Below, piece by piece: positions 6,804 to 61,063 of a DNA stretch of 64,000 nt. This stretch comes from Paenibacillus donghaensis (GTDB taxonomy: Bacteria; Bacillota; Bacilli; Paenibacillales; Paenibacillaceae): positions 2,170,001 to 2,234,000 of the forward strand of contig NZ_CP021780.1 in assembly GCF_002192415.1 (NCBI RefSeq), written 5' to 3'. The stretch's first letter is position 1; each line of letters starts with the position of its first letter. Under the pieces are notes generated by a model. It had not been told where the DNA came from and made no database searches. It worked only from the letters and a program-made list of their open reading frames with translations. The translations under genes and the position numbers were made by a program.

Positions 6804-7112
6804 TGCTTAGTGATTCATTAGGACTGCTTGAGTAATTCTTGCAACGATACAGGAAATAATAGAGTTCTCTGGTTTGCTTCGCCAATCTAGCAGTTACTCA
6901 AAAACGGAAGAAATCCGCTAATTAGTTGCACTTTTGCAATTAAATCAATGGTTCCGAATTCAGGAACCCGGTGGATCAGGCCGATGCACTCTTTTATCCT
7001 TCTATAGTAGTGCAACCAGGCTTCGTTCTCCATATTCTTTGCCGTAGCACACAGACTAACCCGCACCCGGATGCATCTCTTATACTATCAAACTGTAAAG
7101 AGGTGTAAACTC
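6804..7112. other. Non-coding stretch with one palindromic repeat unit
   Basis: No gene is recognisable. Bases 6922-6943 read TTAGTTGC-n6-GCAATTAA, a near-palindrome of the same kind found in the repeat islands at 13-14, 53 and 60 kb. Just before the next gene, TATACT near 7081 could serve as a -10 element. Confidence 0.5.
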
Positions 7113-13091: not shown

Positions 13092-13102
13092 GTTGACTTA
13101 AT

Positions 13103-13128
13103 CTCTTGCGCATTCCGCAGGAACAGCC
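13103..13128 (+). repeat. CTCTTGCGCATTCCGC repeat, copy 1
   Basis: CTCTTGCGCATTCCGCAGG followed by AACAGCC occurs here and twice more, at 14313-14340 and 14355-14389, flanking the repeat island on both sides. The core GCGCATTCCGC is partly palindromic. No coding sense is apparent. Confidence 0.7.
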
Positions 13129-13137
13129 GGCCTTTGT

Positions 13138-14297
13138 GTTACTACTTAGGACTCCTTTAAGGAGCCGAACATTTAGTTGCGAAACGGGTTGCTGCTTAGG
13201 TCTCCATAAGATAGGAGCATCCAAGATGTGATTTCTTGAACACCAGCTTAGTCCAGCCAGCGATTTAAGTGCGAAAACGCACCTAATTCACCGATTTTTT
13301 CTGTTTTGGAGCAAATAAGTGCGAATACGCATCTAATTTCGAGTTTTGAGCGTTAAACAAACGTTTTCCTCGAAAATAGTTGCAGATTCGGTTACTACTT
13401 AGGATCCTGCGAGGATATAGAAGGTTTACTTGCGAAGGTTAGGGGATCACACTACCGTAATCCAAACCCTCCCCACCCGAACTTCAGGTAACCCACGTCC
13501 TAACGGACCGTATAGCTCCAATTTCCTCATTTCTGCGCTGGTTTGGAATCTAACGGACCGCATAGCCTCTATATCGGAAAAACAGGCCTTACCTAGTGGG
13601 TTTTGGCTTGAATAGGGGCTCCTGAATCCGTTAGAGCTGCAAAACAGCCTTTGTACAGCAAATAGGGGCTCCTGAGTCCGTTAATAGTCTGAAAGTTAAT
13701 CGCTGGTTACCGGCGACAGCCTTCCTTTGTTATACTTAGCCTCCTTGTCGCGCGGTGTGGTATGACAGGCTCGGACGAGTAACACAAGGAACATAAGGGG
13801 GTCCTAAGTAGTAACCAGATTCGCACTTATTTCTCCGCTAACAGGAGTTTCAGCTGAAATTAAATGCAGATTCGCATCTAATTCTCTGAAAGCTCTTATG
13901 CAACACTCTACATTGATGTTTCAGCTGAATTTAGTTGCAGTTTCGGTTACTGCTTAGGACTCGGGCCTTCCCCAAGCAGATTGGCGCTATCGAAGGAGAA
14001 AAATATAGGTGGCTATGGGGAAAAACTACCGTTAATTCCGGGCTAATGATCGATAATCATGGCATATAGGGAAAAGTTACCACTGAATCGTCTATCGAGG
14101 GCATTTTGGAGCCAATAGGGTGTCATTAGTGGTAGAAACTCCCTATCCTCTCATCAGATTCCCCAACTTTCGTACAATTAGCGGTAGAATTTCCCTACAC
14201 ATCCTCACTGGACCTAAGGAGTAACCAGTTTCTCATCAAATTACCCAGAAAGTTCCAGGGCAGACTCTAAATTCCTGGCAAGAACCTAAGTAGTAAA
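13138..14297. repeat. Non-coding repeat island 1 (GTTACTACTTAGG-bounded)
   Basis: About 1.16 kb without a gene. The 13-mer GTTACTACTTAGG or its complement appears, exact or with one or two changes, at 13138, 13188, 13391, 13803, 13946, 14213 and 14285. Between them lie near-palindromic units of the type TTAGNTGC-n6-GCANNTAA (for example around 13266, 13317 and 13862), paired CTAACGGAC / GTCCGTTAG elements, and TAGTGGTAGAAA-type elements (14030-14200). The same architecture recurs at 53.4-54.0 and 60.4-61.0 kb. Confidence 0.8.
13391..13815. repeat. 425-bp long repeat with inverted 13-mer termini, copy 1
   Basis: Starts with GTTACTACTTAGG and ends with CCTAAGTAGTAAC. It is nearly identical, by eye about 85-90%, to 60556-60975. 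Inside, two CTAACGGACCG-type units face two inverted CTCCTGA-n-TCCGTTAG units, and a conserved AGCCTCCTTGTCGCGC segment lies near the right end. Short frames in the two copies do not encode the same peptide, so it appears non-coding. Confidence 0.8.
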
Positions 14298-14312
14298 ATT
14301 TTTGCACTTAGG

Positions 14313-14389
14313 CTCTTGCGCATTCCGCAGGAACAGCCCGCTCTCGCTCATAGGCTCTTGCGCGCATTCCGCAGGAACAGCCCGCTCTT
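14313..14389 (+). repeat. CTCTTGCGCATTCCGC repeat, copies 2 and 3
   Basis: Two tandem copies, about 41 nt apart (14313-14340 and 14355-14389), of the element also present at 13103. The second carries an extra GC (TTGCGCGCATTCCGC). Both continue into AGGAACAGCCCGCTC. Confidence 0.7.
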
Positions 14390-53210: not shown

Positions 53211-53481
53211 TCCCCATTCGTCTCTCCCTATCCCTATCCTCACTATCACCCGCTATCCTCTCTTCTCATGCAGCCCCTTACTCAAATAGTGTGCTCTAGA
53301 GCTATACTTCTTCTGAAAGCTGGTTACTTAGATGACTGTGATGGTGCGAAGAGGGATAAGTGGAGCATTACGTGCAGGATTGGAGGTACAGGTTGACTTA
53401 TAAGAGGTTTGCCTTTAATTTGTTTAAACGTTACTACTTAGGATTCCGTATGATAAGAACACTTCAGATTCAGTTCCATGA

Positions 53482-53586
53482 TATAGAACGTGAACTTAAG
53501 AATGTTATATTCGAGTGGTCCGGGTAGCCCAATGCACCCAGCATTCTGACAACTCCACCGTTTCATTCTTAAGTTCATCTTATATA
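53482..53586. mobile_element. 105-bp MITE-like element
   Basis: Left end TATAGAACGTGAACTTAAG-AATG and right end CATT-CTTAAGTTCATCTTATATA are imperfect inverted repeats of about 23 nt, sharing TGAACTTAAGAATG. No coding capacity. A solo left end lies at 44461 and a diverged relative at 61064. Confidence 0.7.
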
Positions 53587-53861
53587 GTCTCATATGATCA
53601 GTCCAAAGAATTAGTTGCGAAACTGCATCTATTTAGCCGTTTTTTTCTGTGTTGGAGGAAATAAGTGCGAAAACGCACCTAATTTAGGATTTTGAGCGTA
53701 ATAAGCTTGCTTTACTCGAATTTAGTTGCAGATATGCACTTATTATCCTGATAATGGGTGTTTCGGCGGAGATTAGTTGCAGTTTCGCATCTAATTACTC
53801 CGGAGGTTCCAAGGCAACACTCTAAATCCTGGCTGAATCCTAAGCAGTAACGAAATGTGAG

Positions 53862-53899
53862 AATAAGCCTCTCTTCCTATAGCGGAAGAGAGGCTTATT
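53862..53899. terminator. Orphan 16-bp perfect hairpin
   Basis: AATAAGCCTCTCTTCC and its exact complement around TATAGC. It has the form of a terminator (TTTG after it) but no recognised gene precedes it, only the repeat island. Confidence 0.55.
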
Positions 53900-53975
53900 T
53901 GATGAGGTATAGGTTACTACGTAAGGCCCCTTGCCTTCTGATAGAGGTTTTAGCTTTCTAAGGAGTAACGCGTAG

Positions 53976-54185
53976 GTGACTATGAATAGTGTGCCCGGAC
54001 GCTTTGAACTGATATTCACCCCCAAACATGGTTCTTGGCTCAATGTGATTGAAAGCTTTTTTGCAAAGATGACGAAACAAGTGCTTCGTCACCTACGAGT
54101 GAAGTCCAAGGAAGAATTGAAACAACGTATTGAATTGTATCTTCAAGAAGTCAACGCCAATCCTGTTACTTTTTCGTTGGAAGCA
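53976..54185 (+). pseudogene. IS630-family transposase C-terminal remnant
   Basis: The frame PGRFELIFTPKHGSWLNVIESFFAKM, then VLRHLRVKSKEELKQRIELYLQEVNANPVTF matches the C-terminal DDE part of IS630-type transposases, including the Glu of the last catalytic residue in LNVIESFF. The N-terminal two thirds with the other two Asp are missing and the end is fused to unrelated sequence (from about 54185 to 54318). Not functional. Bases 54320-54592 show no gene. Confidence 0.8.
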
Positions 54186-54592
54186 TGGGTTAGGTTGAAT
54201 GCCTTTTACGTTATTTCAGATCGTTCTACTAGGCTAATGGAAGTGTTTTACTTCTGGGCCATTTTCCCGGGGAGACGGTTTTTCGGCACCGGATCCGGCT
54301 TAGCGAATCGTCATAAATAGACGCATGAATTGTGCACTAAGATTCGTTCGATTTTTACACCCTTTTCCATAAAGGTTACAAAATTGATACCAAAGTCATA
54401 ATAAAAAATCGCATAACAACGCGGTTTTTCGTAAATCGGTAAAGTTACAAACCATGTAAAAAAAGCTTTGGGTCACAGGCGGGGCTCAGCGCTTTTTCGT
54501 CGTTTCGGATTACGAACTTTCGTCAGGCCAAGCAGGCCGGGTTGGTAACTTATTTTCTAAAATGACGCATTCCCGTCTGTTCGCCTCTATTC

Positions 54593-55339
54593 TTACTGGG
54601 CCGTTAAAATCAGCGGTCCGTCCGGTGTGATTGCGATCGTATGCTCATATTGCGCCGACAACTTGCCGTCGGCCGTTCTCGCCGTCCACTGATCGTCGTC
54701 GATCGTCATACGGAACGTACCTTCGTTGACCATCGGTTCAATCGTAAATACCATGCCTTCCTTTAACCGAATGCCTTTGCCGGCTACGCCGATATGCTCG
54801 TAGCTCGGCTCCTCGTGCAGGCTCCGCCCGATCCCGTGCGCCAGCAGATCGCGTACGACCGAATACCCGTTTGCTTCCGCATGCTGTTGAATCGCCGACG
54901 TTATGTCGCCGAGCCGGCCCCCGGGGAGCGCACGGGCGATCCCCAGATCCAAGCATTCCTTTGTCACCTTCATTAATTTTTGCGCCTCCGGCCGGATATT
55001 GCCCACCGCATAGCACATGCACGAATCGCCGAACCATCCGCCGTATTCCACGACGATGTCGAGCTTCAGCAAATCGCCGTCCATAAGCGCCCGGTTCGAA
55101 GGAATGCCGTGGGCCACCACATCGTTGACCGAAGTGCAGGTTTCGGCGGGGAAACCGTTGTACCCTTTCGTAAACTGCTTGCCGCCCAGCTTGGTGATGT
55201 GTCTGGCAACAAAGTCATTGATTTCCCGGGTGGTGATCCCAGGCTTGATCAGTTTGGCCACCTCGCGGTAGCAGTCCGCAACGATTTGGCTCGCCGGCTT
55301 CATCTCTTCGATTTCCCTAGGTGATTTTAAAATGATCAT
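54593..55339 (-). CDS. map: Type I methionine aminopeptidase
   Basis: 248 residues. Removes the initiator Met from nascent proteins. Metal ligands are all in place: Asp94 (KLDIVV), Asp105 (GWFGDSC), His168 (AHGIG), Glu201 (TIEPMV) and Glu232 (YEHTI), plus the substrate His77 (VAHGIP). The gene follows tetR by 27 nt on the same strand. This is the stand-alone form rather than the one in the ribosomal-protein operon, so it may be a second copy; that cannot be checked here. AAGGAG lies 14 nt upstream, a long spacing. Confidence 0.93.
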   Translation of the reverse strand: MIILKSPREIEEMKPASQIVADCYREVAKLIKPGITTREINDFVARHITKLGGKQFTKGYNGFPAETCTSVNDVVAHGIPSNRALMDGDLLKLDIVVEYGGWFGDSCMCYAVGNIRPEAQKLMKVTKECLDLGIARALPGGRLGDITSAIQQHAEANGYSVVRDLLAHGIGRSLHEEPSYEHIGVAGKGIRLKEGMVFTIEPMVNEGTFRMTIDDDQWTARTADGKLSAQYEHTIAITPDGPLILTAQ

Positions 55340-55366
55340 CTTTTGTTTATTCGCTCCTTATCCATT

Positions 55367-56230
55367 CTATAATTTTAAAAACCGGGCGATATCCCTGGCC
55401 TCCTCGTGCAGCTTTCCGCGGCGAAGCGAAAGCGAGGCGCAGCCGACTAAGGCGGCCAGCAGCATTTCCGCGCGCCGCAGCCGATACGGCGGCTCCGCCG
55501 CGTTTCCGCCGGAAGCGGCAGCCCCGTCCGCCGCACGCCCGGTTTCCAGCAGCGCGGCCAGCGGCGCGAGCACCTCCCGGCGAAAGGCGACCGAGAGCGG
55601 GGCTGAGCGCGCTTCAGGCAGCGAGGCAAAGCCCTCACCGGCCAGCTTATGCAGCAGGTACAGGGCGTGGTCCTCCGCCCAAAGCTGCAGCAGCCGGACG
55701 CCGGCGGCGGCGGCGGGGCCAAGCTCTGCGGCAGCGGCCGTTTCGCGGCTTCCGCTTCGGGAATCCGCGGCAGCCGAGTTCCCGGTGTCCGCCGCAGCAG
55801 CCAAGCCGAAATGCCCGCCCGCCGGCGCCTCCCCCGAAGCCGAAGCGCGCGGAACCTCCAGCGGGGCCTTCAGTTGAGCCTCCAGTGGGACCTCCGGCGG
55901 AACCTTCAGCAGGACCTCCAGCGGGGCCTTCAGTTGAGCCTCCAGTGGGACCTCCGGCGGAACCAGCAGGGCCTCTAGCGGAGCCTCCAACGGGGCCTCC
56001 AGCCATCCCCCGGCCCGCTCCAACGCGTCCCATAGCAGATCGTGGAGCAAATCGCCCTTATTGCTGTAATAATGGTATACCGTGCCATAGCCGAGTCCTG
56101 CCTGCGCGGCCACATCACGGATTTCCAGTAAAGGCCCTTTCTTCAAAAACACATCGGCAGCGGCTTTACGGATTTGCGCCAGACGCCGTAGCCGGATATC
56201 TTCGTTTTGTTCCTTCGTGCGTGGAGTCAT
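55367..56230 (-). CDS. TetR-family regulator with internal tandem repeat
   Basis: 287 residues. N-terminal TetR DNA-binding domain (about 15-62; helix-turn-helix IRDVAAQAGLGYGTVYHYYSNKGDLL). After helix 4 an insertion of about 100 residues begins: a run of LEAPLEA- and PPEVPLEAQLKAPLEV-type repeats (78-127), then an Ala/Gly/Ser-rich part to about 180. The C-terminal ligand domain resumes with LLQLWAEDHALYLLHKLAGEGFASLPEARSAPLSVAFRREVLAPL. It is the first gene of a two-gene unit with map and could control it. High GC. The RBS is AGAGGTGAACGG. Confidence 0.85.
   Translation of the reverse strand: MTPRTKEQNEDIRLRRLAQIRKAAADVFLKKGPLLEIRDVAAQAGLGYGTVYHYYSNKGDLLHDLLWDALERAGGWLEAPLEAPLEALLVPPEVPLEAQLKAPLEVLLKVPPEVPLEAQLKAPLEVPRASASGEAPAGGHFGLAAAADTGNSAAADSRSGSRETAAAAELGPAAAAGVRLLQLWAEDHALYLLHKLAGEGFASLPEARSAPLSVAFRREVLAPLAALLETGRAADGAAASGGNAAEPPYRLRRAEMLLAALVGCASLSLRRGKLHEEARDIARFLKL
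55855..55964. repeat. 60-bp intragenic tandem repeat in tetR
   Basis: Two units of 60 bp (55855-55914 and 55915-55964 onward); about 50 nt are identical between them, including CCTCCAGCGGGGCCTTCAG. Each contains shorter CCTCCAGC / CCTCCAGT sub-repeats that continue to about 56000. The 60-bp period keeps the frame (20 residues). Confidence 0.85.
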
Positions 56231-56394
56231 CTCGTCCGTTCACCTCTTTTGTTATTGACCTACTCATATGTCAATATAAAATATTGGCTTGCGAATTACA
56301 AGAGATTAGCTGGAGGATTTCCGGCGCAACCTAGAAATCGGTGCTTGACCAACGGGTTAGCCTCGAACGAGCGACCTGTTTGGAACATTGATAC

Positions 56395-56607
56395 GCTAAC
56401 GGTTGTCATAGCGCTTAATCGGCCCAAAAAACGGGGGTTTCTTTTCTAACGGTTGTATGCGCGCTTATTTGGACGAAACAGCCCCTCTGCCTACGAAAAA
56501 ACGGAAAATAGGCCCGCTGGCAACGGTTACATTTTGTAAACCCCCATTCTGAGACCAACTAGCGGTAAGAAATCCCTCTAAAATTGCCGCTGGACCTAAG
56601 TAGTAAC
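56395..56607. repeat. Repeat island fragment ending in CCTAAGTAGTAAC
   Basis: CTAACGGTTGTCATAGCGCTT and CTAACGGTTGTATGCGCGC face an inverted GCAACGGTTA, then a CTAGCGGTAAGAAATCCCT element leads to an exact CCTAAGTAGTAAC (56595-56607). Same grammar as islands 1-3 but a different unit sequence. Bases 56231-56394 hold the tetR upstream region and show nothing else. Confidence 0.65.
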
Positions 56608-56680
56608 GTTTAAACTAATTAATAGAATATGGATTAGCTATACCTGGTGAAAATTTCCTGTAATCACCTGCAGCTACCCG

Positions 56681-57441: not shown

Positions 57442-57510
57442 GATGAAAGATCGAGTATAACCCAGAGAAGGACAGGCATGCGGCGAGAGCTGCATGCTCT
57501 TTATTGAAAA

Positions 57511-57608
57511 GATAAGAATGTATAGGTTTCACCTGATGCTAAATCCTTCTATTTCTCGCAGAAACGGTTACCGTCCCTAAAAGGACGGCGAAGCCGTTTC
57601 TACTTAGC
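57511..57608 (+). repeat. ~100-nt double-hairpin repeat, copy E
   Basis: GATAAGAATGTATAGGTTTCAC head, AAATCCTTCTATTTCTCGCAG, outer arms GAAACGG / CCGTTTC and inner CCGTCC / GGACGG. Lies directly upstream of the LysR gene. Confidence 0.8.
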
Positions 57609-60146: not shown

Positions 60147-60378
60147 GTACAGTCTGGGAGAGAATAGACAGCTGGATGACAGCTCTAAATGCGATGCTGT
60201 AAGAGACATGAAACTGATCTGCTTGAGCTTAGCTACAGCTCCTCACACTTAATCACACGCGGGATGTCTAGCGGCTAAGCTAGGCACACTCTCGGTCACT
60301 GCTTCGGACTGACTATGAGTATGATAAGAAGCTGAAGAATTAGCACAGAGATGCTGCTGCTAAGTTCAAACCCATACT

Positions 60379-60975
60379 TTAGTTGCAAAAGTGCAACTAA
60401 TTGTCCGATTTTTATCGTTTTGGAGAAAATAAGTGCAAAAAGGCATCTAATTTTGGCGTTTGGTCCAAATAGGACGGATTTACGCCAGATTAGTTGCAGA
60501 TTTGCACTTATTCACCCGCTTGCTCACGATTCGGCCGAAATTAGTTGCACTTTCGGTTACTACTTAGGTCCCTGCGAGGGTATAGAAGGTTTACTTGCGA
60601 AGGTTAGGGGATCGCGCTACCTTAACCCAAACACTCCCCCCTTCAGGTAACCCACGTCCTAGCGGACCGTATAGCTCCTATTTCCGCATTCCTGTGCTGG
60701 TTTGGAGTCTAACGGACCGCATAGCCTCTATATTGGAAAAACAGGCCCTAACTAGTGGGTTTTTGCCTGAATAGAGGCTCCTGAGTCCGTTAGACCTGCA
60801 AAACAGCCTTTTTACAGCAAATAGAGGCTCCTGAGTCCGTTAGTAGTCTGAAATTTAAGTGCAGGTTACTGGCGATGGCCTTCATTTGTAATTCTTAGCC
60901 TCCTTGTCGCGCAGTGTTGTATGACAGGCTCGGACGAGGAACACATGGAACACAAGGGGGCTCTTAAGTAGTAAC
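60379..60975. repeat. Non-coding repeat island 3
   Basis: Begins with four palindromic units: TTAGTTGCA-n4-TGCAACTAA (perfect, 60379-60400), then 60429, 60490 and 60541, at intervals of 50, 61 and 51 nt. The last unit runs into GTTACTACTTAGG (60556-60568), which starts the long repeat 60556-60975. No gene is recognisable. Confidence 0.85.
60556..60975. repeat. 420-bp long repeat with inverted 13-mer termini, copy 2
   Basis: Starts GTTACTACTTAGG, ends CTTAAGTAGTAAC, and matches 13391-13815 along its full length with scattered substitutions. Both copies share the CTAACGGACCG units, the CTCCTGAGTCCGTTAG units and the AGCCTCCTTGTCGCGC segment. Confidence 0.85.
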
Positions 60976-61063
60976 CACTTTCGCATCTATTTGCGCTGAA
61001 CGTTCCCAACACACTCAGATCCTGGCTAGGTGCTATTCAGCAACCAGTTTCGCAACTATACAA

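Follow-up and report, generated by a model that had tools for sequence, protein, structure and literature searches.

What occupies the intergenic DNA between an MFS gene and a DUF1054 gene of Paenibacillus donghaensis, where about 1.2 kb (positions 13138-14297) is filled with short palindromic units, separated again and again by the same 13 bases? The stretch of DNA analysed here, hereafter called the window, has 64,000 nucleotides and corresponds to positions 2170001-2234000 of the source, an 8.54 Mb sequence in one contig. The initial annotation of the window had listed 13 occurrences of GTTACTACTTAGG or its complement in gene-free DNA, and we recovered all 13 with zero to two mismatches. 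At this tolerance the window holds 15 matches, for a mean of 0.52 and a maximum of 3 in 100 shuffles, the two additional ones being located at 53957 (minus strand) and 57596 (plus strand); the latter falls inside an unrelated repeat found throughout the genus and is probably a chance match. Over the entire genome, 307 exact copies were counted (142 on the plus and 165 on the minus strand) and none of the reversed control, and the exact 13-mer is also present, in at most five copies each, in five of 59 further genomes (36 from the genus, 23 from the order). In the 1.264 Mb where genes were called with a home-made hexamer model (approximately 15% of the genome, window included, with a coding fraction of 0.74-0.75), none of the 70 exact copies was contained in a called gene. 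The initial annotation had named a random distribution of the 13-mer, or its occurrence mainly in genes, as what would speak against a modular element, and the distribution measured is neither. The orientation of the copies is not random either: they form inward-facing pairs (plus then minus), mostly 280-430 bp apart, and many of these pairs are bordered on the outside by 8-bp duplications.

The identity of the 13-mer is given by the long elements that share it. Six matches to the IS66 transposase domain (PF03050) were found in the genome, three of which are full-length elements of approximately 1.6 kb with inverted 13-mers at their ends, one end being altered in two of the three. Perfect 8-bp duplications (CACTTTTG, CAAAAAGG and CGATATCG) flank all three elements. 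The 13-mer ends are absent from the remaining PF03050 matches, namely a fourth long match and two fragments. Among the open reading frames of at least 150 codons, the sole IS66-like one between the ends encodes TnpC, of 509-518 amino acids, with neither tnpA nor tnpB; the protein of locus L044 matches the IS66 catalytic domain PF03050 with an E value of 1.9e-49, together with PF13005 (zf-IS66). Since three full-length IS66 elements end in the 13-mer and are bordered by perfect duplications, the 13-mer is a transposon end, and an ISBst12-like, single-ORF insertion sequence of the IS66 family has GTTACTACTTAGG as its terminal inverted repeat. Two statements of the initial annotation are modified by this result: the 13-mer is not a general boundary word, being the end common to these three elements, and the absence of any gene explaining the islands holds for the window but not for the genome, where the three insertion sequences (ISs) carry the same ends.

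Most of the 13-mer pairs enclose much shorter sequences. In 31 pairs of ends (28 once pairs sharing an end were merged), the outer 8 bp are duplicated with one mismatch at most, and the calculated frequency of such a duplication around a random pair of ends is approximately 4 in ten thousand; some pairs of ends lack the duplication. Four families were distinguished among the short elements: A, of 298 bp; A2, of 412-427 bp; B, of 299-316 bp; and C, of 279-280 bp. Their terminal inverted repeats are those of the full-length IS. By eye, the right end of A2 also resembles the left end of the IS over about 27 bases. The overlap of the duplication-flanked elements with called genes does not exceed 20% for any of them. 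The islands are made of MITEs, short gene-less relatives of the IS66-family element. The succession of units and spacers described earlier is found in the aligned members of each family as two units followed by two inverted units, and the mobile, modular and non-coding nature attributed to the islands is borne out by terminal repeats, target duplications and nesting. Considering the ends that they share with the IS, the MITEs were most likely moved in trans by its TnpC, and each insertion creates the 8-bp target duplication.

The anatomy of the island, together with the other element copies of the window, is given in Table 1. The second B element sits in the first unit of an outer one, and each of the two has received a further insertion. 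The inner B element lacks its right end and the outer one its middle part, which points to a deletion within the island, and no recognisable target duplication was observed around the outer B element. Fusion of the 13-mer to the last unit, reported in the initial annotation, was indeed seen, but its meaning is that of a scar, left where an element inserted halfway along a palindromic unit. The MFS and DUF1054 genes are separated by approximately 1.6 kb here vs 94-153 bp, measured between comparable points, in 6 of 11 relatives where both gene ends were matched; in the other five, 121-182 bp separate MFS from the DUF1054 match, of which only the first 40 or so residues were matched. The nearest sampled relative is approximately 82% identical and base-exact empty sites are not readable in sister species, so that absence is documented at the level of the locus and by empty sites within this genome. 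Direct repeats around TCTTGCGCATTCCGCAGGAACAGCC were also observed on both sides of the island (13096-13131, 14306-14341 and 14350-14385).

Table 1. Element copies in the window, with positions counted from its first base and identities to the corresponding family.
Feature	Position	Strand	Basis
Solitary B-element fragment	6894-6946	-	81% over 53 bp
Outer B element, left end	13138-13187	+	Exact 13-mer at 13138-13150 and first half of first palindromic unit; 13155-13185 matches B positions 51-81 at 94%
Second (inner) B element, left two thirds	13188-13390	+	79% to B positions 1-195; target duplication CAGATTCG in last 8 bases; terminal repeat 13188-13200 with 2 changes
A2 element, 425 bp, in third unit of inner B	13391-13815	+	Exact 13-mer at both ends; perfect 8-bp duplication CAGATTCG, second copy 13816-13823; with flanks joined, 87% to intact B elements over 189 bp
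Inner B element, further part up to B position 286, right end missing	13816-13913	+	84% over 99 bp
Outer B element from B position 211 onward	13912-13945	+	91% over 34 bp; last 8 bases are duplication CAGTTTCG
C element, 280 bp, in fourth unit of outer B	13946-14225	-	Ends, family alignment and joined flanks; duplication copy 14226-14233 with 1 change
Outer B element, right end	14226-14297	+	86% over 71 bp; terminal repeat 14285-14297 on minus strand, 1 change
Candidate passenger-carrying unit, 3178 bp	53430-56607		Left end of B type and right end of C type, bordered by the two copies of an 8-bp duplication, GTTTAAAC (53422-53429 and 56608-56615)
B element with unrelated palindromic insert at about 53480-53605	53430-53851	+	B homology
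C-family end remnant	53913-53984	-	74% over 73 bp
C-like right end, exact 13-mer	56539-56607	-	80% over 69 bp
B element, left part with palindromic units	60378-60553	+	77% over 176 bp
A2 element, 420 bp, in B unit	60556-60975	+	Perfect 8-bp duplication CACTTTCG at 60548-60555 and 60976-60983; joined flanks align to intact B

The nesting follows a rule that concerns the B element. This element contains four copies of the palindromic unit TTAG.TGC......GCA.CTAA, of which 232 exact copies are present in the genome. The pattern was absent from 99 other genomes of the genus, which does not support a genus-wide origin of the units, and stretches of B-element homology of 75 bp or more contain 137 of the 142 exact units in the part of the genome that was read; the B units thus travel with the MITE in this genome. 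The three ISs and most of the A, A2 and C elements are centred in such units, at TTAG.TG^C......G^CA.CTAA, and the elements therefore pile up inside one another. In a logo of 25 insertions, two of which share an end with another row, the positions that border and open the 8-bp duplication are almost invariant (A-4 25/25, C1 24/25, G8 24/25, C9 24/25 and A10 25/25). The sequence abutting the end is a B half-unit for 47 of the 70 exact ends, for 20 of 46 ends that carry one change and for 4 of 34 that carry two, the control being 554 of 100000 random positions. When the flanks were joined with one copy of the duplication removed, 19 of 26 had a match spanning the junction in an intact B element at another place in the genome; these 19 include the three ISs, and no spanning match was obtained for the other seven. 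At the 20 sites of this genome that received elements other than B, 121 flank pairs were complementary, for 59.0 in the shuffled-flank control (0/2000); the permuted control was equally high (123.9) since all these sites share one consensus, and this flank test was run without the rows of four start positions that were outer or redundant. The B elements themselves are mostly located outside B units (2 of 8 sites are in B-like units), and at seven B-element sites the palindrome signal was absent (24/63 vs 23.8 permuted). The A and C units have by eye an outline similar to that of B (TAR-N13 to N15-YTA); as targets they are used very little, by 1 and 0 of 116 ends, respectively.

From these data we propose that the transposase would read the B unit as a target with two-fold symmetry, and that each B copy would spread four such targets. 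Later insertions would then be drawn into old elements, and the islands would grow by self-nesting with the genes spared. That GTTACTACTTAGG is an IS66 end of the ISBst12 type and that the islands are MITEs nesting in the palindromic units of B is, in our opinion, the best explanation of the locus and a very probable one.

The preference for palindromes is not restricted to this genome. Among the best 80 of 495 IS66 relatives, which were scanned for ends and duplications, 32 gave both (17 with GTTAC-type and 15 with GTAA-type ends), the remaining loci being cut by contig ends or missed. For the 17 GTTAC-type ISs, 100 of 153 flank pairs were complementary vs 56.9 in permuted data (0/2000), and when each genome was represented by a single site (n = 11), 58.8 of 99 were complementary on average vs 33.7 (0/40000). 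No palindrome signal was detected for the 15 GTAA-type ISs (37/135 vs 42.5; with one per genome, n = 13, 33162/40000). In a tree of 26 transposases, all 16 GTTAC rows are located on one side of a branch with a support of 100/100. The IS66 transposases with GTTAC-type ends thus form one clade that inserts at palindromes in Paenibacillus and Cohnella. With the short elements added, the scan of 139 loci gave 38 sites in 16 genomes, including copies of Alicyclobacillus, which are outside the length limit of the 32-locus test. The half-sites of these 38 sites read NNN-YTA-WW outward from the duplication, and their first three positions (d1-3) match between left and right in 56 of 114 cases vs 33.4 expected; this symmetry is weaker with one site per genome (16 genomes, MITEs included), with a mean of 22.2/48 vs 14.4 (1232/40000). 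Duplications of 9 bp were observed for Cohnella luojiensis, C. cholangitidis and P. eucommiae, whose transposases group together. The broader proposal, in which an IS66 clade with ends GTTACTACTYAGG (Paenibacillus, Cohnella and Alicyclobacillus) seeks palindromes and its MITEs have here acquired four copies of the target, nest in themselves and can reach hundreds of copies with the genes spared, has in our judgement about an even chance of being right.

Several other readings of the palindromes have to be considered. The units could be REP-type repeats of the host with a function of their own, used by the IS66 elements as a safe target in the way that IS1397-type elements use REPs. Other ISs are known to insert into REPs (PMC1525189), the relative G027 has palindrome arrays without the 13-mer (51-bp period, 55 matches to AATANNNGCNNNNNNGCNNNTATT), and this genome contains 46 copies of a further type of palindrome, ACCTGC-N6-GCAGGT. 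Against such a host origin, nearly all exact B units (137/142) are confined to B homology and the pattern is found in 0 of the 99 other genomes of the genus, and we consider this reading unlikely. Even less is to be expected from structured RNA or regulatory sites of which the 13-mer would be a conserved motif: the islands are indeed intergenic, repeated and palindromic, but the 13-mers behave like the ends of a transposon, duplications included, no covariation of pairs was seen in the units, and Rfam matches at gathering thresholds are absent from the window. We regard this explanation as highly improbable.

The question of what the transposase recognises is closer. Since the stems differ across genomes yet stay symmetric, recognition of a hairpin or cruciform shape, rather than of a symmetric DNA sequence, would suit the data: the stems vary between and within genomes (ccg/ccg and cat/cat in C. 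cholangitidis), in line with the d1-3 match at the 38 sites (56/114), and the symmetry of the GTTAC-type ISs taken one per genome was not reached in any of the 40000 permutations. In this genome, however, the variable arm positions of the units do not exceed the expected pairing and often fall short of it (67 vs 83.1 for positions 4-19 and 31 vs 47.0 for 5-18), so that maintenance of a hairpin within this genome is not supported by pair covariation. Moreover, the same YTA recurs at d4-6, at 81 of 116 ends here and, elsewhere, with T in 51 and A in 48 of 76 half-sites. Because covariation is missing in this genome and the YTA half-site is recurrent, we favour, without certainty, a symmetric sequence read by a transposase dimer; recognition of shape is the less likely of the two but a serious candidate.

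Repeats of other kinds were encountered during this work. In G027, loci L219 (11758-12410) and L222 (6121-7648) contain tandem units AATAACGGC-N6-GCCGTTATT, repeated about twelve times in succession and not bounded by the 13-mer. The ACCTGC-N6-GCAGGT palindrome forms some regular groups, for example at C1:8380199-8381928, and has 9 copies in the genome G129 and 5 in P. faecis. The repeat that contains the match at 57596 (window positions 57500-57606) is a dispersed intergenic sequence of approximately 105 bp ending in a hairpin (CCGTCC..GGACGGCGAAGCCGTTTCTTCTT), and each of the 14 genomes of the genus that were searched has matches to it. The 1.264 Mb read here contains 27 matches; 400 kb of G027 gave 13 and 300 kb of G018 gave 5. 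The first called gene downstream has the same orientation as the repeat in 19 of the 27 cases; the repeat had no Rfam match in the window, and RNAalifold found almost no common structure among the copies. A CRISPR-like hairpin repeat with the arm CGCTCCC (CGCTCCCCGTGCGGGAGCGTGGATT) gave 42 hits in G000 C1:1-400000 (loci L047-L066).

The elements may also have carried genes. According to Pfam, the 3178-bp segment with a B-type and a C-type end contains an M24 peptidase gene, a TetR-type gene and an IS630-like remnant. The genes that flank it are 697 bp apart in the relative G003 vs approximately 4 kb here, and no alignment across the junction was obtained between its joined flanks and G003. On the basis of its one duplication and this one relative, it is possible that the segment moved as a unit. 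Its IS-type ends and its passenger genes without a transposase of that family resemble the mobile insertion cassettes named in PMC3281130, from which it differs by having ends from two types of MITE. No duplication was seen around the B-type pair of ends at 53430-53851; the insert of this B element is, by eye, a palindromic element of approximately 120 bp bounded by GAACTTAAGAATG and its complement, which also occurs at about 61070 and in locus L027.

Mosaic repeats such as BOX and BIME are modular, intergenic and made of repeated units, and the B units, with their 232 exact copies, are likewise repeated extragenic palindromes; here, in contrast to BOX and BIME, the ends, the duplications and the related IS are identified in the same genome. 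The short elements correspond to bacterial MITEs in being short and non-coding, with the ends of a full-length IS, target duplications and many copies, and the B element departs from them by its four internal target-like units, which give rise to self-nesting. The full-length elements are comparable to the ISBst12 group, including ISDge4, described with a single transposase ORF, the end GTGACTACTCAGCA and 8-bp direct repeats (PMC12898284): the single ORF, a similar end sequence and the 8-bp repeats are common to both. What distinguishes the clade with GTTAC ends is its clear palindromic target, the terms "target site" and "palindrom" being absent from the main text of PMC12898284. Insertion into repeated extragenic palindromes is shared with IS1397 and ISKpn1 (IS3), IS621, ISPpu9 and ISPpu10 (IS110) and ISRm22 (IS4), as listed in PMC1525189; these belong to other transposase families, IS66 not being mentioned in that article, and in our case the palindromes ride on MITEs that have the element's own ends.

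IS66 elements, MITEs and ISs inserting into extragenic palindromes are thus already known (PMC12898284, PMC1525189). In a literature search that covered subscription journals only in small part, no title or abstract dealt with IS66 MITEs in Paenibacillus or with palindrome targeting by IS66, and with the same partial coverage no report was found of a MITE carrying an array of its own family's target. Both the palindrome-targeting IS66 clade and the MITE bearing such an array appear to be new.

These results explain a puzzling class of intergenic islands and provide a testable target rule for the transposases of the IS66 family, whose transposition mechanisms have been described as insufficiently characterised (PMC12898284). 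If the B elements are truly landing pads, we would be dealing with a natural mobile element that keeps its own spread within harmless DNA, and its transposase may be a palindrome-directed insertion enzyme.
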